Source of the DNA: a virus
Direction: 5' to 3' (one strand)
Length of the DNA: 51,206 bases
IMG/VR virus record: IMGVR_UViG_3300037153_000206
Coordinates: 1 to 51,206 of that record
The position numbers were made by a program, and so were the translations under genes. The notes beneath the pieces were generated by a model. That model was not told the origin of the DNA. It made no database searches and was given only the letters and a program-made list of their open reading frames with translations. Of this stretch, positions 1-44,699 are shown piece after piece. How positions within the stretch are numbered: the first letter of the stretch is position 1; each line of letters opens with the position of its first letter.

Positions 1-4
1 CCTT

Positions 5-178
5 TCAGCCAGCGAAGCTGTGGGTCTGACGCATGAGCGAGCCGAACTCGCGCATCCGCTTGGCGTGCTCGATGGCCTCAAGCTCCTCGCTGTAGTCATT
101 GACTACACGGTCGGCGGATGCCGAGTAGACGAGGATGGCGTTGCCATCGCCTTCATTGGGATCGAAGATACGGTCCAT
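5..178 (-). CDS. Small hypothetical protein, 57 aa
   Basis: A complete short reading frame (58 codons with stop) on the reverse strand. An excellent AAGGAG ribosome site lies 5 nt before its ATG. The product begins MDRIFDPNEGDGNAILVYS and ends in a charged helix-like stretch (EELEAIEHAKRMREFGSLMRQ). I recognise no domain. It starts 9 nt after the stop of the HNH gene, so the two are probably co-transcribed leftward. The ribosome site and tight spacing make it likely to be real; the function is unknown. Confidence 0.6.
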   Translation of the reverse strand: MDRIFDPNEGDGNAILVYSASADRVVNDYSEELEAIEHAKRMREFGSLMRQTHSFAG

Positions 179-187
179 GGTTTCTCC

Positions 188-565
188 TTAGGAGCCGGAC
201 TTGACGGAAACAGTGATGCCACGCGCAACCAACCGACGCGCCAGCTTGGGAGCGAAGCTCCACAGCGACGTATCGCCGCGCCGGGAATTGCAGACCCGGC
301 AAGCCGGAATCAGATTCGAGCGCTTGTAGTCGCCACCCTGAGCGCCGGGAATGATCCGGTCGGCCTCAATAGCCTCGAAGGACAAGTCCTTCTGGCAGTA
401 CGAACAGGGGACGGTGACGCCATTGCCCCCGAACCCAGCGCTCGGGGAGAGCATGTGGCGCTTGTTGGAACGACGCTGGTGAGAGTTGGGACGAGTCCCA
501 CCGTTCCCAGCACGCGCCTTCCCAGTGGCCAAGCGACGTTCGAAGGACTTGGAAAAAGCGACCAT
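188..565 (-). CDS. HNH endonuclease
   Basis: A 125-residue protein with a C-terminal HNH nuclease fold. A zinc pair C54/C57 is followed by EADRIIPGAQGG, then SNLIPACRVCN with the second zinc pair C89/C92 and the final Asn/Arg-Gly-Asp motif. The usual first His is replaced by Arg (DR instead of DH), a variant I know from other phage HNH proteins. The N-terminal half is basic and probably contacts DNA. I chose the ATG at 565 because AAAGGGG lies 6 nt upstream; an in-frame ATG at 664 would add 33 residues but has a poor ribosome site and would run across operator-like repeats. Phage HNH proteins act in DNA nicking, packaging or homing; which applies here is not visible. Confidence 0.82.
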   Translation of the reverse strand: MVAFSKSFERRLATGKARAGNGGTRPNSHQRRSNKRHMLSPSAGFGGNGVTVPCSYCQKDLSFEAIEADRIIPGAQGGDYKRSNLIPACRVCNSRRGDTSLWSFAPKLARRLVARGITVSVKSGS

Positions 566-598
566 TTCCAGCCCCTTTCTGACTGCTAACGCAGTCAC

Positions 599-649
599 CA
601 TGTTGACATTGGAATGAAACGGCGGCAGAGCAATGTTGACATTCAACAT
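599..649. repeat. Two TGTTGACATT operator-like elements
   Basis: TGTTGACATT occurs at 601-610 and again at 634-643, 33 bp apart, just upstream of the chosen HNH start. The second copy sits inside a perfect 17-bp dyad, ATGTTGACATTCAACAT (633-649). They match the TGTTGACA motif found throughout the window. A protein-binding role is inference. Confidence 0.5.
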
Positions 650-713
650 GCTTGACTCTGCCATCCCGACCTACACGATCTCCCCGCATTCCTTCTTGCG
701 CGAGGGAGTCGTG

Positions 714-760
714 TGTCAAGAATAGCGACACAGTGACAGGGAAGACGAAGTGTCAACACT
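714..760 (-). promoter_or_regulatory. Leftward promoter between paired TTGACA sites
   Basis: Read on the reverse strand, the 12-bp dyad AGTGTTGACACT (760-749) is followed by a -10-like TATTCT (724-719) that runs directly into a second TTGACA (719-714). The two TTGACA cores are exactly 37 bp apart. The same 12-mer, spacing and order recur at 2969-3015 around TATAAT. No good -35 lies 17 bp upstream of the -10, so the TTGACA sites look like repressor operators rather than -35 boxes. The downstream gene is the HNH endonuclease. Confidence 0.5.
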
Positions 761-795
761 GTCACTGTGTCACAAAATGGCCTCTGGACTGTCAG

Positions 796-1158
796 CTATG
801 CTGCAATCCGGCCCTCGATGCGAGCGCGGCGGTTGGACGCCTCGACCATTGACAGCTTGCGAGCCGATCCGGCCTTCAGGCCGTGCTCGATGTGCCAGCG
901 CACCTGGCCGGGGGTGGCCGTTCCGGCGTCGGCCTTCATCGGCTTGCCGTTCCAGTTGAGGGCCATGGTGGCAGAGCCACTGCCCGCAGCCGGGTCGGCC
1001 ACGCGCTCCACCGGCTTTGCCGGGGCGGCAGGGGTGTTGTCAGCCGAGTCGATGGCACGGATGATCTCAGCGACTACCTCGCCCTGCTCCGCAGGGGAGG
1101 CGTCCGGACGGGCGGTGACGACGGCGTTGACGATGGCGTCAAGGGTGACAGCAGACAT
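796..1158 (-). CDS. Hypothetical protein, 120 aa
   Basis: I start this at the ATG at 1158 because AAAGGAG lies 8 nt upstream; the longer frame to 1293 lacks such a site. The product begins MSAVTLDAIVNAVVTARPDAS, has an Ala/Pro-rich linker near residues 45-65, and ends in a basic helical tail (VEASNRRARIEGRIAA). The middle contains GQVRWHIEHGLKAG. No family is recognised. It belongs to the leftward cluster of small genes, with about 65 nt to the next gene upstream. Confidence 0.6.
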   Translation of the reverse strand: MSAVTLDAIVNAVVTARPDASPAEQGEVVAEIIRAIDSADNTPAAPAKPVERVADPAAGSGSATMALNWNGKPMKADAGTATPGQVRWHIEHGLKAGSARKLSMVEASNRRARIEGRIAA

Positions 1159-1222
1159 GGCAGGTTCTCCTTTGGAGAGGTGATTTACGGTGAACTTCGG
1201 TTGGTCGCAGCGAAGCTGCGTG

Positions 1223-1444
1223 CTACGCGCTCTTGCGAGCGTGGTGGCGCGGCTTGCGCTCGCGCTTGAGGCGCTTGCGGAGGGCCTTGGCATCCTCGCG
1301 CTGCACCCTACGGGTCAGTTGGCCAACCGTCACTAGTGACAGGTCAACCTCACCTCCGGTGACACGGCAGACGCCGACGCCACGGATGAGCGATGCATCC
1401 TCCGGATGCAGGCGATTTTCGCCAGTGTTGCGTGAGTAGAGCAT
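1223..1444 (-). CDS. Small basic hypothetical protein, 73 aa
   Basis: The ATG at 1444 follows GGGGAGG with a spacing of 7 nt. The C-terminal third is very basic (KALRKRLKRERKPRHHARK), which suggests nucleic-acid contact. The N-terminal part has no recognised domain. Its leader and ribosome site are nearly identical to those of the gene at 1496-1672. Confidence 0.55.
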   Translation of the reverse strand: MLYSRNTGENRLHPEDASLIRGVGVCRVTGGEVDLSLVTVGQLTRRVQREDAKALRKRLKRERKPRHHARKSA

Positions 1445-1693
1445 GGTGGGGCCTCCCCGTAGGGGTCGTGTGTGAGCGTGCGGGCGATGGTGGCGCTAGT
1501 AGCGACTAGCAGCGCCACCCGTAGGGTCGGCGTCGTAGACGCTGCGCTCGTGGGCGAGCGTGGCCGCGCTGATGAGCGCGCCCGTCCCGATGGTGGGATC
1601 GAACTCAGACCAGTCCATCTCAGCTTCGCTGAGGTCGGTGTCGGCGGTGACGTAGGGGTCGAAATTGAACATGGTGGGGCCTCTCCGTAGGAG
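1443..1693 (-). repeat. Duplicated leader/ribosome-site element
   Basis: The start regions of two adjacent leftward genes share about 22 bp with one mismatch: CATGGTGGGGCCTCCCCGTA from 1443 and CATGGTGGGGCCTCTCCGTA from 1670. The conserved part covers the start codon and ribosome site, while the encoded proteins are unrelated. It looks like a re-used translation-initiation cassette. Confidence 0.6.
1496..1672 (-). CDS. Small acidic hypothetical protein, 58 aa
   Basis: The ATG at 1672 follows GGAGAGG at 7 nt. The first half is strikingly acidic (DPYVTADTDLSEAEMDWSEFD). The rest is a short helical segment (GALISAATLAHERSVYDAD). Small acidic phage proteins often bind a host DNA-binding protein or mimic DNA, but nothing here proves that. 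It appears to be the most upstream clear gene of the leftward set. Confidence 0.55.
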   Translation of the reverse strand: MFNFDPYVTADTDLSEAEMDWSEFDPTIGTGALISAATLAHERSVYDADPTGGAASRY

Positions 1694-2250
1694 TGTGTGG
1701 GCGAATGGTGGGGCGTAAAGGGTGGCGGCGCATCGAAGCAGCCGCGTTCCAGCCTTGCGCTCGTGTGTGTGAGCGCGTCCGGGCACCTTCAAACGTTTTA
1801 CGGCAGGGGTAATTCAAGCCCTATTGGGCATCCGGTTCACATACGGGCGGGCGCATCCTGCGCTCGCGGGCGGTACTGGGCGGGCGCTCGCCATGGATAC
1901 CCATGGGTCAACACGCTTGCCTGTCCACATCCCGCGAGCGCCGTTGCGTATCGCACTCGCAACGCTGCGCCGTTCGGCATGATCGGCGGACACTGCACGC
2001 GCCCTTGCGGGAGCGCTCGCAGACGGCAGGCCATCGCGGGCTGTGCGCAGTGCAAGGGATGTGGCATCCCATTCACGCACAGGCACCGTGATCGGCTCGT
2101 CTGCTCCACCCGCTCGCACCTTGCACTGTGCGTTGAGCGGGACCCGAGTGAGTATGTGTGCTGCCGCAGCCTGCTGTGCGTCTGGCCCTATGAGCGACCG
2201 GTCGGGACCGGCGGGGCGCTGCGTTCCTGCTGCCAATATGTTCGGCACAG
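1694..2250. other. Stretch with no convincing gene
   Basis: Long open frames exist on both strands, but neither has a ribosome site or a natural composition. One forward frame (1697-2302) contains a zinc-ribbon-like segment CKGCGIPFTHRHRDR near 2056-2100, which may be chance or a remnant. GCGCTCGC-type octamers recur several times. I see no clear promoter. Confidence 0.4.
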
Positions 2251-2251
2251 C

Positions 2252-2421
2252 CCTCAAACCCGCATTCCAGAGCCTTTCTCTAGTTTCTTGCTTGAGGCTT
2301 GAGAACATAAAATCCCTGCAAAATCCAATAACTAGATTCCGGAGTCAACGGTTCGGAATCGCCACCCTTGACACCGAACATTTAGCTTCCCTTTAGCAAG
2401 TGGTCCTCAAACCCGCATTCC
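2252..2421. repeat. 17-bp direct repeat CCTCAAACCCGCATTCC
   Basis: CCTCAAACCCGCATTCC occurs at 2252-2268 and 2405-2421. Its ACCCGCATTCC core recurs at 2873-2883. All copies have the same orientation and lie in the gene-free control region. The role is unknown; protein-binding sites or origin elements are possible. Confidence 0.6.
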
Positions 2422-2504
2422 TACGTCGAGATGCCGCCTCTATTTACAGGTTTCTTGTAGGGCTTGATCCCAGTAAGAAATCCGGTCTATCGTTTCTAAA
2501 GATC

Positions 2505-2584
2505 CGCAAATTGCGAGGTTTTCTGCCAGCACGATTCCCGCAAATTGCGACAATTTCCAGGGAGGCAAAAACCCGCAATTTGCG
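2505..2584. repeat. Three CGCAAATTGCG near-palindromes at 34-35 bp spacing
   Basis: CGCAAATTGCG lies at 2505-2515 and 2539-2549, and its reverse complement CGCAATTTGCG at 2574-2584. The starts are 34 and 35 bp apart, close to a whole number of helical turns, so all three sites present a similar DNA face. This is typical of operators or iterons bound by a dimeric protein. The binding protein is unknown. Confidence 0.7.
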
Positions 2585-2596
2585 ACCCTCGAAAAT

Positions 2597-2738
2597 GTCA
2601 CTATTACCGACACATTTCGCACGGTGAAAGTGTGTCGTGAATGTTGACTGTGAAGCTGAGGTGAAATGTGTCATCACACTTCACTATTTCGGTGAAAGGG
2701 GGCACCCTATTTCCTCACTATTAGTGACACATTCACCC
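2597..2738. repeat. GGTGAAATGTGTCA and TCACTATT element cluster
   Basis: Related 14-mers lie at 2609-2622 (reverse), 2623-2636, 2660-2673 and 2725-2738 (reverse), all variants of GGTGAAATGTGTCA. The first two meet head to head; the third forms a dyad with ACACTTCAC at 2676-2684. TCACTATT occurs at 2598, 2681 and 2715. The density in 140 bp of AT-richer DNA argues for a regulatory or origin array. Confidence 0.6.
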
Positions 2739-2754
2739 GAATGCGGATGTACGG

Positions 2755-2819
2755 CAGTCTGCCACGTCAGCCAGATATCGACATGTCAATACAGTCTGCC
2801 ACCCGGTGGAGATATCGAC
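2755..2819. repeat. Two 28-bp iterons with a 37-bp period
   Basis: CAGTCTGCCAC, 7 variable bases, then AGATATCGAC occurs at 2755-2782 and again at 2792-2819. The two conserved blocks are identical in both copies while the 7 bases between them differ, so each copy looks like a bipartite binding site. The 37-bp period equals the spacing of the paired TTGACA sites. A TGTCAA lies between the copies at 2784-2789. Confidence 0.7.
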
Positions 2820-2896
2820 GCCTGATGTCATCAGTGCTGGTCGCCCCCTGGGGAGGCCGTTTCCCCCTAAGGACCCGCATTCCCGAGTTGTGCCCT

Positions 2897-2926
2897 CGTC
2901 CCAACTGCCCGCGTGGGACGGTTGGG
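2897..2926. other. Overlapping alternative hairpins
   Basis: CGTCCCA (2897-2903) pairs with TGGGACG (2914-2920). CCCAAC (2900-2905) can instead pair with GTTGGG (2921-2926). The two helices exclude each other. No T-run follows, so a simple terminator is unlikely. Confidence 0.35.
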
Positions 2927-2968
2927 GCCTGCGGAGCCTCCCTGGCTCGTTCCCCTACGGGCTTCGCT

Positions 2969-3015
2969 AGTGTTGACACTATGGAAGATAGTATACTAGC
3001 TGTATAATGTTGACA
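2969..3015 (+). promoter_or_regulatory. Rightward promoter between paired TTGACA operators
   Basis: AGTGTTGACACT (2969-2980) is followed by the palindrome TAGTATACTA (2989-2998), a perfect TATAAT (3003-3008) and a second TTGACA (3010-3015). The TTGACA cores are 37 bp apart. The TATAAT is 24 bp from the first TTGACA, too far for a standard -35, and the second site would lie over the start of transcription. This fits a repressed early promoter serving the gene at 3068. Confidence 0.6.
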
Positions 3016-3067
3016 ACTCGCTGTGGCTCCGCTAGGCTGCGCGGCTCCGACGACAAGGAGGTTCCTC

Positions 3068-3301
3068 ATGGCTGAGGGAAAGAAGGCACCGCAGGTGGCG
3101 GGGCGTCAGCCTCGCGCGCTCGTGCCCGTAGTACGCAAGACTGGCGAGATCGACTGGGCCGGGGCCGGGAGACTGTGCCGACATCGGCTCGACTGCTTCG
3201 TGCCCGACCAGAAGCGCAACCAGGGCAACTACCGCACGATGGTGGTCACGCCTGAGATCATTGCCGCGTTCAGGCGCTGCGAGATCTGCGGGGGCGAGTG
3301 A
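3068..3301 (+). CDS. Hypothetical Cys-containing protein, 77 aa
   Basis: First rightward gene after the control region. The ATG at 3068 follows AAGGAGG by 6 nt, so I reject the GTG at 3023. The N-terminus is basic (MAEGKKAPQVAGRQPRALVP). Cysteines at CRHRLDC and CEIC near the C-terminus could bind a metal. No family is recognised. Its position directly behind the operator-flanked promoter makes it a candidate early or regulatory protein. Confidence 0.6.
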   Translation: MAEGKKAPQVAGRQPRALVPVVRKTGEIDWAGAGRLCRHRLDCFVPDQKRNQGNYRTMVVTPEIIAAFRRCEICGGE

Positions 3302-3336
3302 TGTAAATACTCTTGAAAGTAATCGCTGTCGTAGGC

Positions 3337-3353
3337 GTAACGCTGCGCGTTAC
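3337..3353. other. Perfect 7-bp inverted repeat
   Basis: GTAACGC and GCGTTAC are separated by TGC. It lies between the genes at 3068 and 3431, about 35 bp before the TGGTAAGCT promoter element. No T-run follows; an operator is as likely as an RNA hairpin. Confidence 0.35.
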
Positions 3354-3387
3354 TTAGCCTTACGCGGGAAGCGGGGGCGCGCGGGTG

Positions 3388-3396
3388 TGGTAAGCT
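3388..3396 (+). promoter_or_regulatory. Extended -10 element TGGTAAGCT
   Basis: Matches the recurrent TGnTAnnnT form seen before other transcription units in this window. It lies 34 nt before the GTG start of the secreted protein. No obvious -35. Confidence 0.4.
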
Positions 3397-3430
3397 CGCG
3401 CGCATTCTGCGTCTGGAGGGAAGGAGGAGC

Positions 3431-4216
3431 GTGCGTCTACGAATCCTGTTTGTGAGCGTCAGTGCCGGGATGGCGCTGACGTTCATGAGCGCGCTGCCAG
3501 CGGTGACCGGTGGCCAGCCGGTGTCAGATCACGGTCATCACGGCAAGCACCACAAGAAGAAGGTGACGATCTGCCACCGGCCTCCCGGCAATCCGGGCAA
3601 CGCGCACACGATCCGGGTGAGCAAGAAGGCGCTAAAGGCGCACCTGGCTCATGGTGACACTCTTGGCAAGTGTCCGAAGCCGCATCCGACGCCGACGCCC
3701 ACCCCCACGCCGAGTCCTACCCCGACTCCGACGCCGACAGCTACGCCGACACCGACTCCCACGGCAACGCCGACGCCAACAGTGACGCCAACTCCGACGC
3801 CGGTCGTGGGACCGCCAGGGCCTCCCGGTCCTCCTGGCCCACCCGGACCTCCCGGACCTGCTGGACCTCCGGGACCGCCTGGCCCTCCTGGCGCTGACGC
3901 TCCGGTGTCGTGCCCGAAGGGATCGGTTCGCGTGGCGCGGTGGCGCGTTGTTGTCAAGCGTGGTCACAGGGTGACTTCGTTCAAGGCGACGTTCAATGGC
4001 GAGAAGGCTCAGGTCCGCAAGACGCGCACGAAGGGCGGGCGGCGAATGTTCGTCATCCGTATTGACATGCGTGGGCTGACGAAGGGCATCTACAACGCCC
4101 GCATCCGCTACCGGCTCGCCGGAGAGCACCGCAAGTTCCCGCACAGCAAGGTCCATCTGTACCGGGCCTGCGGCGGCAAGGACTCGCTCAACGCAGAGAC
4201 GATCATCACGATCTAA
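3431..4216 (+). CDS. Secreted collagen-like surface protein
   Basis: A 261-residue modular secreted protein. A signal peptide covers about residues 1-28 (basic start, then a hydrophobic run). Residues 45-81 contain a CHRPPGNPGNAHTI module found in bacterial secreted proteins. Residues 86-124 are a Pro-Thr repeat and 127-154 a Gly-Pro-Pro collagen-like repeat. A C-terminal domain of about 90 residues (160-250) follows, with cysteines near each end. The GTG at 3431 is preceded by AAGGAGG. Secreted proteins of Solirubrobacterales often end in similar domains (from memory, not searched). A strong terminator follows. It is not an obvious virion gene; it may be cargo that alters the host surface. 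Confidence 0.75.
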   Translation: MRLRILFVSVSAGMALTFMSALPAVTGGQPVSDHGHHGKHHKKKVTICHRPPGNPGNAHTIRVSKKALKAHLAHGDTLGKCPKPHPTPTPTPTPSPTPTPTPTATPTPTPTATPTPTVTPTPTPVVGPPGPPGPPGPPGPPGPAGPPGPPGPPGADAPVSCPKGSVRVARWRVVVKRGHRVTSFKATFNGEKAQVRKTRTKGGRRMFVIRIDMRGLTKGIYNARIRYRLAGEHRKFPHSKVHLYRACGGKDSLNAETIITI

Positions 4217-4240
4217 TACTGCTGACATACCAACTCCGGG

Positions 4241-4274
4241 AAGGCCCTGCTTCGGCGGGGCTTTCTCGTTTCTG
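4241..4274 (+). terminator. Intrinsic terminator
   Basis: GGCCCTGC and GCGGGGCTT pair around a TTCG loop, followed by TTTCTCGTTT. It ends the secreted-protein transcript. Its stem closely resembles the one at 6886-6907. Confidence 0.85.
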
Positions 4275-4281
4275 GTAGGAT
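4273..4281 (+). promoter_or_regulatory. Extended -10 element TGGTAGGAT
   Basis: TG-G-TAGGAT directly behind the terminator. Transcription should start near 4288, which excludes the ATG at 4283 and supports the ATG at 4313. The identical 9-mer occurs at 16575-16583 and 48754-48762 on the reverse strand. Confidence 0.55.
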
Positions 4282-4312
4282 CATGCCCGACAACGACGAC
4301 GACGGAGGCTCC

Positions 4313-4576
4313 ATGCCCGCACGCAGAGTAGTACCGCACGAGATGGTGATCGGCTCAGACGGCTCGGCCTGGCAGGTGTTCCGCATCCGCCACGACGACG
4401 GTGCCTACACGGCGATCACCGTGCTCCAGAGCGCTCCGGCTGAGCGCGGCCCGAAGGCGACCGAGGAGCGCCGGGTCGGCTACTCGTCGGCGCTCAACGT
4501 CAGTACGGTTGTCACTGAGCCGTTGGCGTGGATCGAGGACTACGCGCGGCGGCACATGCCAGCCAAGGCTGCATAG
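4313..4576 (+). CDS. Hypothetical protein, 87 aa
   Basis: The start is the ATG at 4313 with GGAGG 4 nt upstream; the in-frame ATG at 4283 overlaps the promoter. The product has a beta-rich first half (EMVIGSDGSAWQVFRI, GAYTAITVLQ) and ends with an amphipathic segment (LAWIEDYARRHMP). No family is recognised. It is a single-gene unit with its own promoter and terminator, a layout common for phage accessory genes. Confidence 0.6.
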   Translation: MPARRVVPHEMVIGSDGSAWQVFRIRHDDGAYTAITVLQSAPAERGPKATEERRVGYSSALNVSTVVTEPLAWIEDYARRHMPAKAA

Positions 4577-4611
4577 CTTCCAGACAGACGACAAGGATGT
4601 TGTCGGATTGG

Positions 4612-4650
4612 ACCCCCGGTTTCACTCGCTGGCCGGGGGTCTTCTCTTTG
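4612..4650 (+). terminator. Intrinsic terminator
   Basis: ACCCCCGG and CCGGGGGT form an 8-bp stem around a 13-nt loop, followed by CTTCTCTTT. It closes the 4313-4576 unit. Confidence 0.8.
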
Positions 4651-4815
4651 TCAGGAAGATTACCGCCAGTTTTGGGTAGGCCCTGCGTTAGAGCCAAATG
4701 AGGGCCGCAGATGCGGCGGCGAGCTATACCCCGCGCTCGCCAGCCGGTGGGCAGGACGCCTGCTGCACACGGACGCCAGCAGCCAGCGGCAGGGACGCCG
4801 CGCCGGTTCCTCAAG

Positions 4816-5023
4816 GTGGAACACCCGGATGTTCCACTTCATGTAAGATGCGCGCCGCCGCTCCGGTTCTTGTCCGCTCACCTCGGATCGAGCCGGGGCG
4901 GTACCCACACATAGCACCCGCCGCTGTGACCCCTGCCTGGCGAGTGCGCTTAGCCTGCGGCCCCCGTTGGACTTCGCTCGTTGAGAGACAGGGTTGAAGG
5001 GACACCAGCGGGGGTCGTCCTTT
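4816..5023 (+). ncRNA. Candidate small RNA unit with dyad operator
   Basis: About 480 bp (4577-5056) holds no convincing gene but is organised. A perfect 8-bp inverted repeat (GTGGAACA/TGTTCCAC, 4816-4837) is followed by a -10-like TAAGAT (4844-4849). A strong stem, CCCCCGTTGG (4961-4970) with CCAGCGGGGG (5005-5014), then precedes TCGTCCTTTGTC. Together these could make an RNA of about 165 nt with its own terminator. This is inference from signals only; the stem could instead be a stand-alone terminator. Confidence 0.3.
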
Positions 5024-5056
5024 GTCTACAGTGCTGACTATACGAAGGTATAGGAC

Positions 5057-5197
5057 ATGGCCGAGATCGATCTGCTAGGGTCGCCCGCGCTGAGCCGGTG
5101 TAGGTGGCCGTGTCAGAGCGTTCCGGCGAACACGCGACACGACTCTTTACACCTGAGTTTCGGGCCGAGACGAAGGTGGCACCGGCTCAGCACCTAA
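5057..5197 (+). CDS. Possible small protein, 46 aa
   Basis: ATG at 5057 with GAAGG about 8 nt upstream; the frame stops at 5197. The product begins MAEIDLLGSPALSRCRWPCQ. Composition is not clearly protein-like in its second half. A short dyad, CTATAC/GTATAG (5038-5053), lies just before it. Low confidence: it may be chance. Confidence 0.25.
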   Translation: MAEIDLLGSPALSRCRWPCQSVPANTRHDSLHLSFGPRRRWHRLST

Positions 5198-5231
5198 ATC
5201 CCGGTAAAAGCAGCTAATTCGTGAACGGGAC

Positions 5232-5284
5232 TTGACGGGGGATCGAGCGCCCGGATAGGGTGCGCTCGGCGCTGTGGACAGCGC
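5232..5284 (+). promoter_or_regulatory. Promoter with downstream palindrome
   Basis: TTGACG (5232-5237), an 18-bp spacer, then TAGGGT (5256-5261). Just downstream, GCGCTGT and ACAGCGC (5269-5284) form a perfect dyad around GG, positioned like an operator over the transcription start. The next gene is the secreted protein at 5345. Confidence 0.5.
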
Positions 5285-5344
5285 TCCCGGAGGAAGGGAC
5301 GTAACGCCTCCGGACCCCATTCCACACCACAAGGAGGGACGCGC

Positions 5345-6859
5345 ATGAGGATGCGTGTTCGACTCGCGCTCTGCGTGAGTGCCCTGGCTGCCCTGGCCAC
5401 GCCGGTTGCGGCGCAGGCGGCTGTCGGGAACCCGTACAACGACGGCAATGACGCCGCCGTGGACCGGGCTGCGCCGGACAACTTCCGGCTCAACCTCTAC
5501 ACGCTGGAACCGGGATGCTTCCCGGCTCCGCACTTCGCCACCAGTGTGCATTTCGACATCGGTGACGACAACAGGTCGGCGCACGTGAGTGTCAGCAATG
5601 GCGCTCCCCTCAGTGTCGATCAGGTGCTGGTGCCAGGTCGCCACACCGGCTACGCCGTGATCAACACGTTCGACACCGGGACCGTTGACAACGATCCTGA
5701 CATCGATCCCGATCAGACGGGCACGAACCTCGAAGCGCCGCTCGTCGCTGGCAAGCATGACGAGATCGAGATCGATGACGTGTCGCGGTTCGCGAAGATC
5801 ATCGTCTGCGTGAGCGATCACGAGGACAGCGGTCAGAACGAGCCGTATGCACACTCCGACTCGCCTGCGGGCGCGAACGAGGTGTACGCGAAGAACCGGC
5901 CGGTCATTCAGCCGACTGTCGCCAGTCTTGGTCAGGGCGCGCTCAACGGCATCGCCAAGACCTACAAGATGGGCCTCGGCTACGAGATCGAGTCGTGGTA
6001 CGACGAGTACAACTTCGCGGACGTGCCGCCGTTCCAGCTTGACTGGACGGACCCGATGGCGTTCGGTGACAACCCTGATGGCACCAACACGCCGTCGCAT
6101 GTGTCGATTCCGCCCCGCATCGCGGGTCCGGTGTTCGATGCGATGTCAGACGGTCCCGGCGTCCTTCGCGTCAACGACATTGACGTGGCGGGCGAGGAGT
6201 TCGATGACCCGCACTACGAGGCGAGCGACTACGGCCAGACGACCGTGTTCCACGCGGCCGGTGATCCGTTCAGCGCCTGTCTCGGCGGACTCACGTGCTC
6301 GTCCGGTCCCGCGAGCCTGATCTCGTTCGGCACGCAGGGCGATTTGCCCGTCTCATGGTCGCTCAAGCCGTCGCTCGCCAGTGTTGACAGCCTGCGCAGC
6401 GTGGACTTCACGCAGGATGACTTCGAGGCGTGGCAGAACGGTTGGGAGGCGTACTACTGCGGGACCGGCGCGCGCCCGGATCTCCCGCTGACGCCGGGTA
6501 CCAACTCGCCGGACCCGCGCAACACCTGCCCGATCATCGTCAACCCGCCCGTCAGCCAGCCGCCGACGAGCACCGGGACGAACACCACCACTGTTGTCAC
6601 GAAGACGAACACCGTCGTCGTGGACAACTCGTGCTCCGGCAACAAGAACCACCGGGTCACGTTCAAGAAGAAGGCCAAGAAGGGCAAGCTGAGCTACCTC
6701 GGCAAGACCGTCAAGGCCAAGAAGTCCCACGGTCGTCTGCGGGCAACCGCGAGGCTGAAGGGTGTCAAGGGTGCTGCCGGTTCCTACGTCGCCGTCGTCA
6801 AGAAGACGAAGGTCAAGCGCTGGAGCCAGCAGACGCTGCTGTTCAAGCTCTGCGGCTAG
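5345..6859 (+). CDS. Large secreted protein, 504 aa
   Basis: Starts at ATG 5345 with AAGGAGG upstream. A signal peptide spans about residues 1-25 (MRMRVRLALCVSALAALATP, cleavage near AQA-AV). A large acidic ectodomain follows, with paired cysteines suited to an exported protein. A Thr/Asn-rich linker near residues 410-440 leads to a basic C-terminal module of about 65 residues (VTFKKKAKKGKLSYLGKTVK). That ending resembles surface modules of Solirubrobacter-like bacteria, from memory. The enzymatic role is not recognised. It has its own promoter and terminator and lies outside the virion genes, so it is probably host-acquired cargo. Confidence 0.75.
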   Translation: MRMRVRLALCVSALAALATPVAAQAAVGNPYNDGNDAAVDRAAPDNFRLNLYTLEPGCFPAPHFATSVHFDIGDDNRSAHVSVSNGAPLSVDQVLVPGRHTGYAVINTFDTGTVDNDPDIDPDQTGTNLEAPLVAGKHDEIEIDDVSRFAKIIVCVSDHEDSGQNEPYAHSDSPAGANEVYAKNRPVIQPTVASLGQGALNGIAKTYKMGLGYEIESWYDEYNFADVPPFQLDWTDPMAFGDNPDGTNTPSHVSIPPRIAGPVFDAMSDGPGVLRVNDIDVAGEEFDDPHYEASDYGQTTVFHAAGDPFSACLGGLTCSSGPASLISFGTQGDLPVSWSLKPSLASVDSLRSVDFTQDDFEAWQNGWEAYYCGTGARPDLPLTPGTNSPDPRNTCPIIVNPPVSQPPTSTGTNTTTVVTKTNTVVVDNSCSGNKNHRVTFKKKAKKGKLSYLGKTVKAKKSHGRLRATARLKGVKGAAGSYVAVVKKTKVKRWSQQTLLFKLCG

Positions 6860-6885
6860 ACGCGAGCCTAGTCACAGGAAGGGAG

Positions 6886-6913
6886 AGGCCCTGCTGCGGC
6901 GGGGCCTTTCCTT
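6886..6913 (+). terminator. Intrinsic terminator
   Basis: AGGCCCTGC and GCGGGGCCT form a 9-bp stem with a TGCG loop, followed by TTCCTTT. It closes the 5345-6859 transcript. Confidence 0.85.
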
Positions 6914-6951
6914 TGCCCCGACTCAAGCTCGACGGCGGTTCTGCCGATGCC

Positions 6952-6960
6952 TGGTAGAAT
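6952..6960 (+). promoter_or_regulatory. Extended -10 element TGGTAGAAT
   Basis: TG-G-TAGAAT behind the terminator. With a 6-nt gap, transcription would begin at 6967, exactly where the 10-bp leader stem starts. It probably drives the long small-gene operon beginning at 7071. Confidence 0.6.
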
Positions 6961-6966
6961 CGGGGC

Positions 6967-7041
6967 GCTGCCGGTGTTCCAGCGCGTTCTCCTCCGCTCG
7001 CGCCCGATCCAGACACGTCGGACCCCAGGAGCACCGGCAGC
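6967..7041 (+). promoter_or_regulatory. Long 5' leader hairpin
   Basis: GCTGCCGGTG (6967-6976) pairs perfectly with CACCGGCAGC (7032-7041). Inside, CTCCT can pair with AGGAG. The stem begins at the predicted first transcribed base and ends about 20 nt before the ribosome site of the 7071 gene. A 5' stem could protect the message from decay or regulate the operon; this is inference. Confidence 0.5.
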
Positions 7042-7070
7042 ACCGACAACACAGACGACAAGGAGTACCC

Positions 7071-7460
7071 ATGCGACCCATGGTGATCGCCGCAGTGGCT
7101 CTGCTGGCGGTCGGAATCGCGAATATTGACGTTCACCCGACCGAGACACGGACGGTTACCCGCACGGTGGTCAAGCGGCCACCCCCGAAGGTCGTGACGA
7201 AGATCAAGACGGTTTACAGCGAACGGCCAGTTGGTAGCGGCGTGATGACGCGCGCCGACTGCGAGTCGCTGAGCAAGACCGAGATGGACTTCCGCGCCAT
7301 CGTCGCGCGCTGGGGCTGGCCCGCTGGACAGAATGGCGAAGACAGCGGTAGCGACACACTGTACTACAAGCTGACCGATGCCCCCGATGAAGGCGAGTGC
7401 CAGATCGGCTTCTGGAACGGCAAGGTCGATGACGTGGACATCGAGGAGGACTGGCTGTGA
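7071..7460 (+). CDS. Membrane-anchored or exported small protein
   Basis: ATG at 7071 with AAGGAG 5 nt upstream. The first 17 residues (MRPMVIAAVALLAVGIA) form a signal or anchor segment. A Thr/Lys/Pro-rich stretch (TVTRTVVKRPPPKVVTKIKT) follows, and then an acidic globular domain containing FRAIVARWGWPAGQN and ending DVDIEEDWL. Two cysteines are present. No family is recognised. It is the first gene of a tightly coupled operon, and its stop overlaps the next start. Confidence 0.6.
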   Translation: MRPMVIAAVALLAVGIANIDVHPTETRTVTRTVVKRPPPKVVTKIKTVYSERPVGSGVMTRADCESLSKTEMDFRAIVARWGWPAGQNGEDSGSDTLYYKLTDAPDEGECQIGFWNGKVDDVDIEEDWL

Positions 7461-7771
7461 GCTTCAAGAAGGGTGATCTCATCCCGGTCGCGCTCGGCGG
7501 CTACATCCGCGTCATCAATCCTGACTGGCCTGAGGGTGACGAGCCGTTCTGCGAACGCGCCGATCCCAACACCTGGGCGCTCGTCTACCTGCGCCCGGAC
7601 GGCTGGTGGGAGGCAGGACGCGGCTGGGACACGCTGCACGATGCGCGCGAGGACGGCAAGACCCACGCCTGGCACGGAACCTCCTGGGGAATTGTCAACA
7701 TTCCTGAAGACATGCCTCAGATCCAGATGTCGGACGGCGAGGATCTGACGTGGGGAGAGAAGTACGAATGA
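7457..7771 (+). CDS. Hypothetical protein, 104 aa
   Basis: GTG start overlapping the previous stop (GTGA). The protein is Trp-rich (WWEAGRGWDTLHDA, HAWHGTSWGIVN) and acidic at its end. The opening FKKGDLIPVALGGYIRVI resembles a small beta-barrel. Its role is unknown. Overlapping stop/start codons couple it to both neighbours. Confidence 0.6.
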   Translation: MSFKKGDLIPVALGGYIRVINPDWPEGDEPFCERADPNTWALVYLRPDGWWEAGRGWDTLHDAREDGKTHAWHGTSWGIVNIPEDMPQIQMSDGEDLTWGEKYE

Positions 7772-8295
7772 GCGCAGCAATACTGCTGATTGACCCCAAG
7801 TACGGGCACAACATCGGTGCGACCGTGCGAGCGGCGGCAACTCTCGGCGCTCCTGAGGTGCGCTGGACCGGCTATCGCGGCGCGCGTGAGGTGCAGGCAC
7901 GGATTCCTCGTGAGGAGCGTCTGCGCGATTACCGTGCTCGTGTGGACTTCGGTGAGCTTGAGACTGTCGAAGGTGTTGTCAAGCCCATCGACATCTACGT
8001 CGAGCGCGGGTTCACGCCGGTTGCCGTCGAGGTGCTGCCCTCGTCGGAGTCACTGGTCGATTTCGTACATCCTCACAATGCTCTTTACATCTTTGGGCCG
8101 GAAGACGGCTCGTTGACGAAGGGCATCAAGGAGGTGTGCCACCGGTTCGTGTCGATTCCGAGCAAGGGATGCCTCAACCTGGGCGCGGCGGTCAATGTCG
8201 TGCTGTACGACCGGCTGGCGAAGGCGACAGCAAAGGAAACAATCGCGGGACTCCGCGAAACAATAGCGACACTACGAGAGGAAGGTGTGGGATGA
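7768..8295 (+). CDS. SPOUT (SpoU/TrmH-like) RNA methyltransferase
   Basis: A 175-residue protein with the three SpoU signatures: HNIGATVRAA near residues 14-23 (motif 1), LYIFGPEDGSL near 106-116 (motif 2, the SAM-knot glycine loop) and SIPSKGCLNLGAAVNVVLY near 129-147 (motif 3). These proteins transfer a methyl group from S-adenosylmethionine to ribose or bases in tRNA or rRNA. The length equals a bare catalytic domain without an RNA-binding extension. The ATG at 7768 overlaps the previous stop. Such an enzyme is unusual in phages and may modify host tRNA; the substrate cannot be read from the sequence. Confidence 0.85.
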   Translation: MSAAILLIDPKYGHNIGATVRAAATLGAPEVRWTGYRGAREVQARIPREERLRDYRARVDFGELETVEGVVKPIDIYVERGFTPVAVEVLPSSESLVDFVHPHNALYIFGPEDGSLTKGIKEVCHRFVSIPSKGCLNLGAAVNVVLYDRLAKATAKETIAGLRETIATLREEGVG

Positions 8296-10097: not shown

Positions 10098-10309
10098 TGG
10101 CAAGACCGGCGTCAGTCGTTGTGTGGGTCTGTGACAACTGTGGCAACTACTTCGGCTCGTCGTCGGCTGAGCTTCTGCATGACCAGTGGAACGAGCACCA
10201 TGGCGTCAGGACGTTCCGGCGCTCGCGCTGTCCCACGAAGACGTGTGCTGAGCAGGGCATCCATCGAATCCCGATCAAACTGGAGTTGCCACGTGGCCGA
10301 AGCAGATGA
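10097..10309 (+). CDS. Zinc-binding hypothetical protein, 70 aa
   Basis: TGATG overlap with the previous stop. CDNCG and a later RCPTKTC, with HDQWNEHHG between them, form a likely zinc finger. The C-terminus is basic. Its end overlaps the start of the AraC-type gene by 17 nt, which couples the two. A nucleic-acid-binding role is likely but unproven. Confidence 0.55.
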   Translation: MARPASVVVWVCDNCGNYFGSSSAELLHDQWNEHHGVRTFRRSRCPTKTCAEQGIHRIPIKLELPRGRSR

Positions 10310-10667
10310 CATCTTTGTTGCCATCAGGACGTACATCGAGGTCAACTACGGCAGGCAGATCCGGCTCGTTGACTTCTGCACCGGCACTGGCGTCTCACAG
10401 AGGGATGCGCAGAACGCGCTCAGCTACATGGCCAAGTCGTGGGGGCGCATGCTGCTGGATGAGCGCATGAAGCGCGCCAAGGAGCTTCTGTCGTACTCCG
10501 GCGAGAGCATCGAGGTGATCGGTTCTCGTGTCGGGTATGACGACACTTCGCAATTCATCCGCACATTCAAGGCCGACGAGGGAAAGGAACCGGAGGAATA
10601 TCGACAGTGGATTCAGAAGCAGCAGCAGCAAGCGGCCTCTCCCCTAGACGGGTCGCCCTCTTCCTGA
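10293..10667 (+). CDS. Stand-alone AraC-type DNA-binding protein
   Basis: A 124-residue protein that is almost entirely an AraC/XylS DNA-binding domain. The first helix-turn-helix lies in RLVDFCTGTGVSQRDAQNAL. The conserved linker RMKRAKELLSYSGESIEVIG follows. The second unit is SRVGYDDTSQFIRTFKADEG, ending EPEEYRQWI. There is no sugar-binding or sensor domain, so it probably acts as a constitutive transcription factor on phage or host promoters. GTG start at 10293 with GGAG upstream. Several other regulators sit in the same operon. Confidence 0.82.
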   Translation: MAEADDIFVAIRTYIEVNYGRQIRLVDFCTGTGVSQRDAQNALSYMAKSWGRMLLDERMKRAKELLSYSGESIEVIGSRVGYDDTSQFIRTFKADEGKEPEEYRQWIQKQQQQAASPLDGSPSS

Positions 10668-10843
10668 CTGGTGTCCAGACTGCTGACGGCGATCTCGATG
10701 GAGTGGTGCAGGCAGTGATCGATGACGCCGAGAGTCGTGGTCTGTTCTTCGAGTGGGCCGCAGTCGGAGAAATGGACATCAGTGATGTCATCCCCAACTC
10801 ACCGCTCCATCAGGCCATGATGGGGCGTCCGCCTGATCGCTGA
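10607..10843 (+). CDS. Hypothetical protein, 78 aa
   Basis: The frame opens with a GTG at 10607 and overlaps the AraC gene by 61 nt, so the true start may lie further in. The later part reads VALFLTGVQTADGDLDGVVQAVIDDAESRG, which looks like a genuine alpha/beta protein. Stop and next start overlap (TGATG). Function unknown. Confidence 0.5.
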   Translation: MDSEAAAASGLSPRRVALFLTGVQTADGDLDGVVQAVIDDAESRGLFFEWAAVGEMDISDVIPNSPLHQAMMGRPPDR

Positions 10844-11172
10844 TGGCGGCTGTCATCGACCGCCTCTCACCGCGCCAGGGCAAGGTGCTGCGGTACCTTT
10901 GCTCGACGCGGCAGCAGCCGGTGACCCCGGATCGCACCATTCGCACGATTGAGTGGAGCGATCTACCGAAGACGGTTCTCCAGGCTCGGAAGGCCCTGGA
11001 GGTATTGCGGCGATTCAAGCTCGTTGAGAAGGTCGGCAAGAATGCTTACACACCGACCGAGGCGGGCAGGGCGATGGTTGCCGTGGCAGACGAGGAGCAC
11101 AGGTGGCAGGAGGCTCCTCCTCCGGCAGTGACAAACGCACACGCCAGATTTCCCAAAAGGAGTAGTTACTGA
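10843..11172 (+). CDS. Winged-helix DNA-binding protein, 109 aa
   Basis: The order of elements fits a winged helix: LSPRQGKVLRYLCS (helix 1), a recognition region around TVLQARKALEVLRRFKLVEK, and a wing at VGKNAYTPTEAGRAMV. This resembles MarR/PadR-like small regulators. The tail after residue 85 is proline-rich and probably disordered. It is coupled to both neighbours by TGATG overlaps. The target is unknown. Confidence 0.65.
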   Translation: MAAVIDRLSPRQGKVLRYLCSTRQQPVTPDRTIRTIEWSDLPKTVLQARKALEVLRRFKLVEKVGKNAYTPTEAGRAMVAVADEEHRWQEAPPPAVTNAHARFPKRSSY

Positions 11173-13651: not shown

Positions 13652-13948
13652 GTGAAGACGCCGCCGACGAACTGTCCGATGTGTGAGGCGCTAGGACCGT
13701 TCCGGCCACGCCATAGGCCCATTTCTGACAACAGAATTGAGGTCTATATCCGCTGTACGACGTGCAATTGGACGCATGTCCTGCGTGTCAGCACGCCGGA
13801 GATCGAGGCCCTGCTCAGGAAACGGGCGCACTGGGAGGCATACGGACGGGCTACTCGTGTCAAGCATGGCGTTCCAAGCTCGCTTGCGGTGGCGCAACTG
13901 AGGAAGATCAGCAGCAAGATTCAGGAGCTAGAGCGTGAGATCGCGTGA
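13652..13948 (+). CDS. Zinc-ribbon protein, probable leaderless mRNA
   Basis: I choose the GTG at 13652 because it coincides with the predicted transcription start; the in-frame ATG at 13640 lies within the -10 element. The 98-residue product has a zinc ribbon, CPMC ... CTTC, in its first 45 residues (pattern as in TFIIS-like ribbons). A basic helical region rich in Arg/Lys and a final coiled-coil-like segment ([15 protein letters not shown]) follow. Its partner gene downstream overlaps its end by 14 nt. Nucleic-acid binding is likely. Confidence 0.6.
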   Translation: MKTPPTNCPMCEALGPFRPRHRPISDNRIEVYIRCTTCNWTHVLRVSTPEIEALLRKRAHWEAYGRATRVKHGVPSSLAVAQLRKISSKIQELEREIA

Positions 13949-14183
13949 TCTCACTCCCTTGCAGTTGGAAATCGTCATGCATCTTGCCAATGGCAGGACG
14001 CTGAACGAGATCGCCAAGACTCTTGATCGCTCGCGCAGCCACATCGGACAGCAGGCTGATCGAGCGCGGCGCAAAGCACAGGCCAGGACGCTGCCGCAGC
14101 TTGTGTCAATCGTGATTGCTTCTGGTCAGCTTGAGTGGCAGGACAATCAGCGCGTGCTCAACGGCGCTACCCCGCCTGCGTGA
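13935..14183 (+). CDS. LuxR-type helix-turn-helix protein, 82 aa
   Basis: The sequence [20 protein letters not shown], followed by [20 protein letters not shown], is a GerE/LuxR-like DNA-binding domain, here without a sensor domain. GTG start at 13935, overlapping the zinc-ribbon gene. Its 3' end overlaps the convergent tail-fibre gene by 17 nt. It may be a transcription activator or a sigma-4-like protein for later genes; that is inference. Confidence 0.7.
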
Positions 14184-17427: not shown

Positions 17428-17436
17428 ATCCTATCA
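17428..17436 (-). promoter_or_regulatory. Extended -10 element TGATAGGAT (leftward)
   Basis: TG-A-TAGGAT overlaps the 3' end of the small HTH gene. Transcription from about 17421 would give a leader of about 200 nt for the lysin gene. Confidence 0.5.
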
Positions 17437-17646
17437 ACCGATGCTGCGGTCGGCCACGATCCGGCGAAGGTCAGCCGGGGTCAGGCCGGACGCCTCGGAC
17501 ACATCGTCAACGGTGCAGCCAAGTCGCGTGATCGCTTCGTAGCACGCCTGCTCCAGCCGTGCGCGGGCTTCTAGGCCGCGAACCTCGGCGCGGATGAGGG
17601 CGTTGCTGGTCGAGCGAACGATGTTGAGAGTGTCAAGCGTGGTCAT
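17434..17646 (-). CDS. Small helix-turn-helix protein, 70 aa
   Basis: ATG at 17646. The first half is a charged helix (NALIRAEVRGLEARARLEQA); the second is a typical helix-turn-helix (ITRLGCTVDDVSEASGLTPA, then LRRIVAD). The layout resembles small phage DNA-binding or packaging-associated proteins. A TACACT -10-like sequence lies just upstream on the reverse strand. The role is unknown; a local regulator of the neighbouring lysin promoter is one option. Confidence 0.6.
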   Translation of the reverse strand: MTTLDTLNIVRSTSNALIRAEVRGLEARARLEQACYEAITRLGCTVDDVSEASGLTPADLRRIVADRSIG

Positions 17647-20352: not shown

Positions 20353-21414
20353 TTGGCAGTCATTGACGACATCATGGATCAGGCCGCGCTAACCGACAGC
20401 ATTGTTGGCCCGGTCGAGACGGAGATGGAAACGGAGCCGTTCCGAGGCGAGCAGATCGCGCCGATGCAGGACACGGACTCGCAGTACGTCTCCATGCGAG
20501 TCGAAGATCTCCATGCGTTCGGCATTGGCCAGTTCCGTGCCCCTGAGGCGAGCATCCCGCTCATGGACATCACTGGTCGTGAGGAGCGCGAGGAGGTCAT
20601 CGAGCTTGCCTATCTGGACGAGGCGCACCGCATCTCGCCACTGCGTTGGGAGCGTCTGACGCAGGGCGGCGAAGTTCTTGCCGCACGTGAGGCACGGCGT
20701 CTGGTCGAGATCGGTCAGATCCTCGAACGACGCAACGAGCGCCTGACCGAGTGGATGCGCTGGAGCGCGTTCTCAGGACAGGTGACCATCGAGTACCAGC
20801 AGCGGGACACCGCTCTGGTGATCGACTACCCGCTCCCGAGCGGGCACAAGCCGTCCGCAGCAGTTCCGTGGACGGACACGACCAACTCAGATCCCGTCAA
20901 CGACCTGAAGACCTGGCTGAAGACTGTCAGTAATGATGCTGGCAGCCCCGGCAAGTTCGTTCATCTCAGCGACGACGACGCCGAGTTGATCGTGACCAAC
21001 CAGAAGCTCCGCAACTACTTCAACGTGGATGTGGGGCAGCCGTTCATGCCCACGCTGGCCGACGTTCTGAAGCTCCTGCCCGCAGGGGTCGAGTTCGTCC
21101 CGGTCAACGAGGCGTACCGCGACGAGAGCGTCGGCGGCAGCAAGCGCCCGGAGGATCACACGCGCTACCTGCCCATCGGCAACGTCATGGTCACCACTGC
21201 CTACAGCATCGCGGGGTTCGGTGGGATCGCGGAGACGCTGAACGGCCCGGTCGAGATCAAGACCGGCCCGGACTCGACATCATTCCTGCCGGGTCCGCAG
21301 TCCGAGATCATCCTCAAGGGCGAGGGTGTCTACACACGCCTGCTGCGCCAGGGAAGCCGTCGCATCGTGCGGCTGAAGCGGCCGGAGGCGTTCCTCTACG
21401 GCGACGTGCGCTAG
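20353..21414 (+). CDS. Major capsid protein (capsid E family)
   Basis: 353 residues. Start is TTG at 20353, set by AAGGAGGTG 8 nt upstream. The order of elements fits lambda gpE-like capsid proteins: an N-terminal arm, EVIELAYLDEAHRISPLRWE, a helix rich in Arg/Glu (ILERRNERLTEWMRWSAFSG), GTVTIEY-like strands at QVTIEYQQRDTALVID, and a C-terminal domain with GNVMVTTAYSIAGFGG. About 415 copies would form a T=7 shell in relatives; the exact number here is unknown. Flanking genes (decoration protein, connectors) agree. Confidence 0.85.
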   Translation: MAVIDDIMDQAALTDSIVGPVETEMETEPFRGEQIAPMQDTDSQYVSMRVEDLHAFGIGQFRAPEASIPLMDITGREEREEVIELAYLDEAHRISPLRWERLTQGGEVLAAREARRLVEIGQILERRNERLTEWMRWSAFSGQVTIEYQQRDTALVIDYPLPSGHKPSAAVPWTDTTNSDPVNDLKTWLKTVSNDAGSPGKFVHLSDDDAELIVTNQKLRNYFNVDVGQPFMPTLADVLKLLPAGVEFVPVNEAYRDESVGGSKRPEDHTRYLPIGNVMVTTAYSIAGFGGIAETLNGPVEIKTGPDSTSFLPGPQSEIILKGEGVYTRLLRQGSRRIVRLKRPEAFLYGDVR

Positions 21415-42866: not shown

Positions 42867-43214
42867 ATGTTGACTACTCTTGCGATTGTCGAATGGGCAC
42901 AGATCGTCCCGCTTGCCATTGGCATCTTCGGCCTCGGCGGGCTGATCTTCACTGCCCTGCGATTCCGGCGCGACGACACGACAGCCATCGTGAATCAACA
43001 GTCAACAATCTTGAACGACATGAAGAAGCTCAACGAGGAGCTTCGGACGACAGCAGACGGATTGCGAGTCGAGCGCGATGGACTGCGGGAGCAGGTGGCG
43101 AACCTGTCGGGCCAGGTGGAAGCCCTGAGAGGCGAACTGAAAGAGGCACGAGAGCACATCGGTGGCCAGGTGGAAAGGCTGGAGAGGAAAATTGACAACG
43201 GACAGAACGAGTGA
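42867..43214 (+). CDS. One-span membrane protein with coiled coil (holin/spanin candidate)
   Basis: 115 residues. Residues 6-31 form a membrane helix (VEWAQIVPLAIGIFGLGGLI); the rest is coiled coil (LNEELRTTADGLRVERDGLR). A short anchor with an extended coil is typical of phage i-spanins and of some holins. It is the first of three adjacent membrane proteins after the tail genes, the usual place for lysis functions. No clear ribosome site. Confidence 0.55.
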   Translation: MLTTLAIVEWAQIVPLAIGIFGLGGLIFTALRFRRDDTTAIVNQQSTILNDMKKLNEELRTTADGLRVERDGLREQVANLSGQVEALRGELKEAREHIGGQVERLERKIDNGQNE

Positions 43215-43947
43215 CATCGATATTGTCACTGAACATATCGACAACCAAGGCCGGACGGTGTTGCAGTACAGCCGTCAGCGGTTTCTCGGTACGTGGTGTG
43301 CGATTGCGTTGTTGGCGATCCTCACCGCGCTCGCGCTGTGGCTGGGCGTGCGTGGCTTCAACTACGACAACGCGCAGAACTACACACTGGCGACGCAGGC
43401 TGGCGATACGGCTGACACCGCCAATACCAAGAGCAATGACATCTATCTGTTCCTGCGGGGTCAGCGTGGCCTCCCCGGTGTGCCGGGAGCAGACGGCAAG
43501 GACGGTAGCCCCGGACAGCCTGGCTCGAATCCGGCGCTGCTGCCGCCAGGCCCAAAAGGCGCTACTGGCAATACCGGCCCTACTGGGCCTGCTGGTCCTG
43601 CGGGACCGGTCGGCCAGACTGGCACTGCGGGTCCGTCCGGCTCTGCGGGAGTCAAGGGTGATGTCGGTGCGACCGGAGCTACCGGTGCTCAAGGTGACGC
43701 CGGAGCGCCTGGTGCTGACTCGACTGTTCCTGGCCCCGAAGGTGCGAAGGGGGAGACGGGTGCGGAAGGGCCTGCTGGGATTCAAGGTCCAGAGGGTCCG
43801 GCTGGGCCACAAGGACCGCAAGGCCCGGAGGGACCGGCAGGACCGGCTTGTCCGGCTGGATCAACACTCACGCAGATCAACGTCCACGAGCGATTCCCGG
43901 AAGGCACAGCCGTGATTCTCGTGTGTCTGGTGAGTAGATCGCCATGA
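43192..43947 (+). CDS. Membrane-anchored collagen-like protein, 251 aa
   Basis: TTG start at 43192 with GAGAGG upstream, overlapping the previous gene; GTG at 43162 is the alternative. After a short cytoplasmic part comes a membrane helix (about 35-55; CAIALLAILTALALWLGV), then from about residue 90 a Gly-X-Y repeat of about 130 residues, and a C-terminal stub. Its motif YSRQRFLGTW is shared with the next gene (YSRKRFLWTW). A collagen-like rod held in the membrane is unusual for a phage. Confidence 0.6.
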   Translation: MTTDRTSDIDIVTEHIDNQGRTVLQYSRQRFLGTWCAIALLAILTALALWLGVRGFNYDNAQNYTLATQAGDTADTANTKSNDIYLFLRGQRGLPGVPGADGKDGSPGQPGSNPALLPPGPKGATGNTGPTGPAGPAGPVGQTGTAGPSGSAGVKGDVGATGATGAQGDAGAPGADSTVPGPEGAKGETGAEGPAGIQGPEGPAGPQGPQGPEGPAGPACPAGSTLTQINVHERFPEGTAVILVCLVSRSP

Positions 43948-44285
43948 GTGTTGATCCATTCGCAGTTGCGCTGACGAATGTGCTGGAGTATTCGCGCAAG
44001 CGTTTCTTGTGGACGTGGGTTGTCATCTGTCTTGGCGCTGCTTTCACCGGCTACACGTTGTTCTTTGCGGCGCAGCAGAGAAACATCAATACTGAGAACA
44101 CGAAGAAGCTGTCGATCTCGACTGGCGTACTGTGCGAAGCGATCCTTGCCACTCCAGACGAGGATGAGGAGGAGATCCTGGGCAAGCTCGCGCTGTCAAC
44201 TGCGTACACATCTAATGATCCGACCGGCGATATCACAAACCCGCTGTGTATCAATATCGTCAATAGGCTTTCCAATGGCGACTAA
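43944..44285 (+). CDS. Membrane protein, paralogous N-terminus, 113 aa
   Basis: ATGA overlap. VLEYSRKRFLWTWVVICLGA begins a single membrane helix (about 22-44). A soluble part with an acidic helix (ATPDEDEEEILGKLALSTAY) follows. The N-terminal half resembles that of the preceding protein. Candidate holin partner or membrane scaffold. Confidence 0.55.
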   Translation: MSVDPFAVALTNVLEYSRKRFLWTWVVICLGAAFTGYTLFFAAQQRNINTENTKKLSISTGVLCEAILATPDEDEEEILGKLALSTAYTSNDPTGDITNPLCINIVNRLSNGD

Positions 44286-44295
44286 AGTGTCAAAA

Positions 44296-44383: not shown

Positions 44384-44449
44384 GATATGCTTGCCGATCC
44401 GGTTGCTAGAGACACCGAGAAGGGATGAACCCACGATGCGTACACAATC

Positions 44450-44677: not shown

Positions 44678-44699
44678 CTCGCTGGGATCATACTGGGCG

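Follow-up and report, generated by a model that had tools for sequence, protein, structure and literature searches.

Position and layout of the divergent region

The window analysed here is an entire virus record of 51,206 bp, in which no end repeats were found. Its gene products include a Phage_cap_E-type siphovirus coat protein (20353-21414), a tape-measure protein of 2,369 residues, tail fibres, a Dit-like tail protein and a helicase. Among large relatives, G001 (108,063 bp) is the nearest; it was the only close relative available for comparison, and the host is uncultured. Since G001 is for the most part colinear with the window and extends beyond it, the window probably represents about half of a siphovirus genome of ~107 kb. 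The other half of G001 encodes DnaB, primase, a single-strand-binding protein, a DNA polymerase and a portal-like protein. Two further relatives, G005 (112,874 bp) and G004 (112,325 bp), have end overlaps of ~125 bp, as in circular assemblies. A search of viral contigs with the coat protein returned 26 related loci, which were 67-96% identical.

Neither Phage_integrase (PF00589, tyrosine integrase) nor ParB_N (PF02195) was found in the window, G001, G004, G005 or G008, whereas the positive controls were matched; serine integrases lay outside this search. Judged on tyrosine integrase and ParB, with serine integrases outside the search, the virus family apparently is virulent.

Genes were called with a simple home-made codon-usage caller, not a published program, and the following layout was obtained.

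1673-3067, no strand assigned: gene-free divergent region, flanked by the starts of the leftward arm (1672) and of the rightward arm (3068)
1496-1672, minus strand: first leftward gene, 58 aa, no Pfam match
3068-3301, plus strand: first rightward gene, 77 aa, no Pfam match, with a ribosome-binding-like AAGGAGG at 3055-3061

In the gene strand map, this region is the main divergent point between the leftward and rightward gene arms of the window. The first-pass annotation had described about 750 bp without genes; the absence of genes was borne out, and the extent proved to be larger. The leftward arm of G001 spans 88,857 to 59,438 with 83 genes, mostly small. Its rightward arm, which carries regulators and structural, replication and packaging genes, starts at 90,277 and, on the circular map, reaches as far as 59,050. 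The gene-free gaps of G001 were 1,419 bp at the divergent point (88858-90276) and 387 bp at the convergent point. The two-arm layout was also observed in G005 (divergent gap of 807 bp, 99635-100441) and G004 (2,707 bp, 43000-45706). Small opposite-strand cassettes lie inside the arms, so that the region is the major, not the sole, divergent point.

The GC content of 2252-2998 was 51.5%, compared to 61% for the whole contig, in agreement with the earlier statement that this stretch is AT-richer than its surroundings. In 300-bp windows the region was the AT-richest zone of the first 21 kb, and in 1-kb windows it was, together with 36-37 kb, the AT-richest of the contig. In G001, the AT-richest 400 bp of the genome lie at the matching region (rank 1 of 2154).

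Several other features were noted in the vicinity. Leftward genes share a leader consisting of a small hairpin and CCCCACC before the ATG (CCCCTACGGGGAGGCCCCACC-ATG), seen on the minus strand of the window at 1444-1470 and 1672-1695 and in G001 at 88553, 88989, 89129 and 90166. A gene for a collagen-like protein with Pro-Thr and Gly-Pro-Pro repeats (3431-4216) lies near the region; its homologue is elsewhere in G001 (58236-58771), indicating that the gene has moved. A SpoU-type RNA methyltransferase gene (7768-8295) has its G001 homologue in the leftward arm (62904-63352). A noncoding stretch of ~375 nt on the plus strand (4888-5262) is a candidate structured RNA. Its mean column identity to G001 (L035:5006-5378) was 84%, and the wider gap around it folded better than shuffles in the window and in G001 (z of -4.4 and -6.7, respectively), with few compensatory changes between the two sequences compared. 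It had no Rfam match, and its conserved blocks were not found in G004, G005 or G008.

Repeat families, half-sites and dyads

The elements of the region are as follows.

2252-2268, plus strand: CCTCAAACCCGCATTCC, copy 1; CAAACCCGCATTCYAGAGCC is common to the relative G005
2313-2323, minus strand: TTTTGCAGGGA; the word is also in the control regions of G001, G005 (TTGCAGGGAA) and G004
2405-2421, plus strand: CCTCAAACCCGCATTCC, copy 2
2503-2517, no strand assigned: dyad 1, TCCGCAAATTGCGAG (CGC-W5-GCG)
2537-2551, no strand assigned: dyad 2, CCCGCAAATTGCGAC
2572-2586, no strand assigned: dyad 3, CCCGCAATTTGCGAC
2584-2737, no strand assigned: GTGA/TCAC half-site cluster, 11 sites in 150 bp, the contig maximum
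2703-2714, plus strand: CACCCTATTTCC; a conserved degenerate form (CACCC then TT.CC) precedes the core by 41-44 bp in four genomes
2745-2763, plus strand: core GGATG-N6-AGTCTGCC, one copy each in the searched sequence of four family members
2755-2819, plus strand: 37-bp-period pair, CAGTCTGCCAC at 2755 and 2792, AGATATCGAC at 2773 and 2810
2873-2887, plus strand: ACCCGCATTCCCGAG, a shorter version of CCTCAAACCCGCATTCC
2970-3008, plus strand: possible rightward promoter zone, GTGTTGACAC at 2970-2979 (kept in G001) and TATAAT at 3003-3008, with a spacing that is not the sigma-70 standard

The stretch 2252-2998 contains 61 repeated 9-mers, compared to 5.9 +/- 4.5 (maximum 34) in 500 dinucleotide-preserving shuffles. 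Five further 747-bp windows of the contig match or exceed this count, and all of them lie immediately to the left, with starts at 1001-1401; the stretch 1001-2147 is richer still in repeated 9-mers. The repeat families proposed in the first-pass annotation are thus real and denser than chance, and most of them were recovered: the CCTCAAACCCGCATTCC repeats at 2252 and 2405 with the shorter copy at 2873, TCACTATT at 2598, 2681 and 2715, the three dyads at their 34-35-bp distance, and the pair in which CAGTCTGCCAC and AGATATCGAC each occur twice, 37 bp apart. Conversely, GTGAAATGTGTC was present as a single copy, at 2661, and GGTGAAATGTGTCA and TCACTATT were for the most part not separate families.

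Elsewhere in the contig, TCACTATT has one other copy, at 39134, and CCCGCATTCC occurs once more outside the region, at 683. The latter belongs to a second small cluster (680-770) upstream of an HNH gene, which also contains an inverted repeat (GTGACACAGTGACAG / CTGTCACTGTGTCGC in the minus-strand reading); a similar arrangement was seen in G001 (L035 about 2140-2220). Relative to a second-order Markov model, the words TGTTGACA and TGTTGTCA were 9- to 12-fold enriched in the window and 6- to 8-fold in G001, and most of their copies in the window lie inside genes. As a phage-wide operator, TGTTGACA was rejected: it is enriched in the contig, yet 12 of its 18 copies are inside genes.

The four GGTGAAATGTGTCA copies and those of TCACTATT can be better summarised as a single GTGA/TCAC half-site cluster. 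On average the contig has 1.3 such sites per 150 bp, and the second-best place has 6, compared to 11 in the region; for 2584-2733 alone, the 10 sites were matched by none of 2000 shuffles. The genome maximum of G001 (10) lies at the matching place, and the count in G005 (7) ties for the highest there. The sites at 2623, 2636, 2649 and 2660 align one to one with those at 89811, 89824, 89837 and 89849 in G001, at a spacing of ~13 bp.

The dyads start at 2503, 2537 and 2572 and are therefore spaced by 34 and 35 bp, the third reading CGCAATTTGCG, the same word on the opposite strand. G001 also has three dyads (89702, 89728 and 89763), spaced by 26 and 35 bp, and the dyad core is CGCTATTTGCG in all three of them, in contrast to CGCAAATTGCG in the window. 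RNA around the dyads folded better than shuffles in the window and in G001, but the two structures differ, which argues for the local DNA dyads as the conserved feature; RNA hairpins were rejected on this ground. Intrinsic terminators were also rejected, as a T-tract follows only one of the three dyads in each of the two genomes.

Conservation among relatives and noncoding arrays

The window and G001 were 71% identical over 2621-2765 (145 bp) at the same position, with perfect blocks alternating with changed stretches. The two are homologous in the region and therefore count partly as one observation. Among the shared words, TTGCAGGGA occurs in G001, G005 and G004 and is reversed in the window, and the CCCGCATTC element has two copies in G005, 98 bp apart. 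At the matching place, G004 and G005 have dense repeats specific to each; in the divergent gap of G004, 17 AATCAGGTT-like words were counted, compared to about 2 expected and 0-2 in shuffles. A comparison with relatives had been suggested as a check of the repeats, and it upheld the architecture and not the exact words.

The core GGATG-N6-AGTCTGCC was found once each in the window (2745), G001 (89,935), G005 (100,364) and the first 19.4 kb of G008, the part scanned (95), always in this region and on the plus strand. It was absent from G004 and from the parts read of G006 and G007. The chance expectation was 0.001-0.005 per sequence, a post hoc figure, since the core was spotted by eye; after a generous post hoc correction, a chance origin is unlikely (about 0.004, our own estimate rather than one computed by a tool).

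BLASTN of 1-8000 against phages and plasmids gave low-complexity matches only, and the region itself had no match among phages. Three DNA patterns from the region, searched against viral contigs, returned only G001 or only G005, and protein scans with the neighbouring genes returned no further control region. Nothing exceeded the Rfam threshold.

In G005 and G008, 1-3 kb downstream of the core, units of 36-37 bp are repeated about 52 and 29 times, respectively, in noncoding arrays.

G005 101276-103720 (L037:8276-10720): noncoding array of 36-37-bp units
G008, L040:2160-3480: noncoding array of 36-37-bp units

Searched against viral contigs, the array pattern returned at least 120 stretches (from L065 on), in contigs of 48-69% GC. 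Among the matches listed, 81 of 120 loci had at least 5 units, up to 49 strong units occurred in a single locus (L184), and the consensus was GAGCGAGCCA-N8-GAGAGCACCA-N8, with a half-period of 18 bp and spacers almost without information. In bacterial genomes, the pattern was found in eight stretches, in MAG contigs of Acidobacteriota and Gemmatimonadetes. A limited literature search yielded no description of these arrays.

The window contains none of the GAGCGAGCCA-N8-GAGAGCACCA-N8 units, but the 10-8-10-9 geometry of the arrays recurs in its 37-bp pair, with different words. The pair might be a two-unit version of the arrays, within an uncharacterised phage origin or control hub made up of the core, the three CGC-W5-GCG iterons and the GTGA array, a reading that we consider improbable.

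Proposed two-way early control and possible replication origin

We propose, with a probability of about 0.6, that early genes in both directions are controlled centrally from this region, to which at least one phage protein binds. Being at the divergent point, it must serve both arms. The multi-protein switch raised in the first-pass annotation gained support from this place at the major divergent point and from the conservation of position and part of the sequence in relatives. The region would most likely hold the first promoters of the leftward and rightward arms, so that early transcription in both directions would be switched from a single place. The clustering of GTGA/TCAC half-sites at about one helical turn suggests cooperative binding by one or more phage-encoded DNA-binding proteins, and another phage protein may bind the three CGC-W5-GCG dyads. 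The core would mark the rightward side, and rightward transcription may start or be controlled at it. Promoter activity and protein binding are what we infer from these features, as are the proteins' identity and the timing.

A standard sigma-70 promoter scan of the region gave no rightward match and a single 9-of-12 match, which is at chance level. For the genes adjoining the region, no recognisable regulator and no Pfam match were found; proteins with HTH motifs are encoded 7-11 kb away. Candidate regulators in the early rightward arm are an AraC-type HTH_18 protein (10293-10667) and a weak sigma-70-region-4/GerE-like protein (13935-14183). Two further candidate DNA-binding proteins are encoded at 10843-11172 and 17434-17646. 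The lambda operators are the type of a divergent early control region in a double-stranded DNA phage. As there, a gene-free gap lies between divergent gene sets and contains clustered operator-like repeats; in contrast to lambda, no adjacent repressor was recognised, no tyrosine integrase was found and the region is larger (about 1.4 kb). We know of no described phage with the GTGA/TCAC half-sites and the single-copy 19-bp core.

The same elements can be read as a replication origin, in which the dyads would be iterons for a phage initiator, the AT-rich stretch 2270-2500 would melt, and the core and the GTGA cluster would be accessory. We regard this reading as the main alternative, less likely than two-way control; an origin co-located with the control region is compatible with two-way control, the two not being exclusive. 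The conserved elements occur only at this locus and not at other operons, which counts against a control region and is equally expected of an origin. An origin is also favoured by the regular spacing of the three semi-palindromic repeats next to an AT-rich stretch and by the concerted change of the three dyad cores between the window and G001, as in origin/initiator pairs. Iterons of the lambda origin lie within the initiator gene O; iteron-like repeats adjoin an AT-rich stretch in both cases, and the region here is noncoding. The dyads also resemble the origin of PLE1, which consists of three semi-palindromic iterons of ~30 bp (PMC8263062). Both sets of repeats are regularly spaced and intergenic, whereas PLE1 is a satellite element with a RepA initiator and here no initiator was recognised and extra repeat families are present.

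Other observations argue against an origin. No adjoining gene resembles an initiator, most of the small genes having no known family; DnaA-box-like words, with one mismatch each, are restricted to the margins (1921 and 3008), strong DnaA boxes being absent; and DnaB, primase and polymerase are tens of kb away on the map. GC skew had been proposed as a check of the origin, and the turn of the cumulative skew was explained by gene orientation, which it follows. In G001, leftward genes had a four-fold-site GC skew between -0.14 and -0.25 in the leftward arm and between -0.16 and -0.33 in the cassettes of the rightward arm, with noise in bins that have few sites. The skew of leftward genes is thus similar on the two sides, indicating no replication-type flip at the region, which counts only against a symmetric bidirectional origin; the top strand is richer in G throughout, consistent with one-directional or mixed replication.

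Three further explanations carry little weight. The core reads ATG-NNN-NNN-AGT-CTG-CC in all four genomes (MYGSLP, MYESLP, MVMSLP and MVLSLP), as if a leader peptide M-x-x-S-L-P, whose translation controls the downstream genes, were encoded within an otherwise ordinary spacer. This is very unlikely: the third positions of the AGT and CTG codons are invariant in all four genomes, which indicates a DNA or RNA constraint, the leader frames end at differing lengths and have no consistent ribosome-binding site, the G001 frame is interrupted in the window by an indel in a conserved stretch upstream, and no RNA fold at the core was better than shuffles. Either a prophage attachment site or a partition centromere of plasmid type would account for a gene-free, repeat-rich site present once per genome; this is even harder to credit, given the five records with neither Phage_integrase nor ParB_N (serine integrases being outside the search) and a coat protein that found no match in the bacterial genome collection. 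Finally, several of the words claimed earlier are just 8-11 bp long, as might arise by chance in AT-rich DNA. We give this almost no credence, because of the excess of repeated 9-mers over shuffles, the homologous architecture of G001 and the core common to four genomes; for the whole region, chance was ruled out by the shuffles and the relatives.

Overall, in this family of uncultivated siphoviruses of ~107-113 kb, four members have the core GGATG-N6-AGTCTGCC as a marker of where the rightward arm begins, and the sequence of the repeats changes between relatives while the layout stays. The analysis also brought to light a 36-bp noncoding array that is common in environmental phages. The region, a probable central two-way early control region, provides a defined, testable set of cis elements, by which the binding proteins and the mode of replication would become findable with simple assays.
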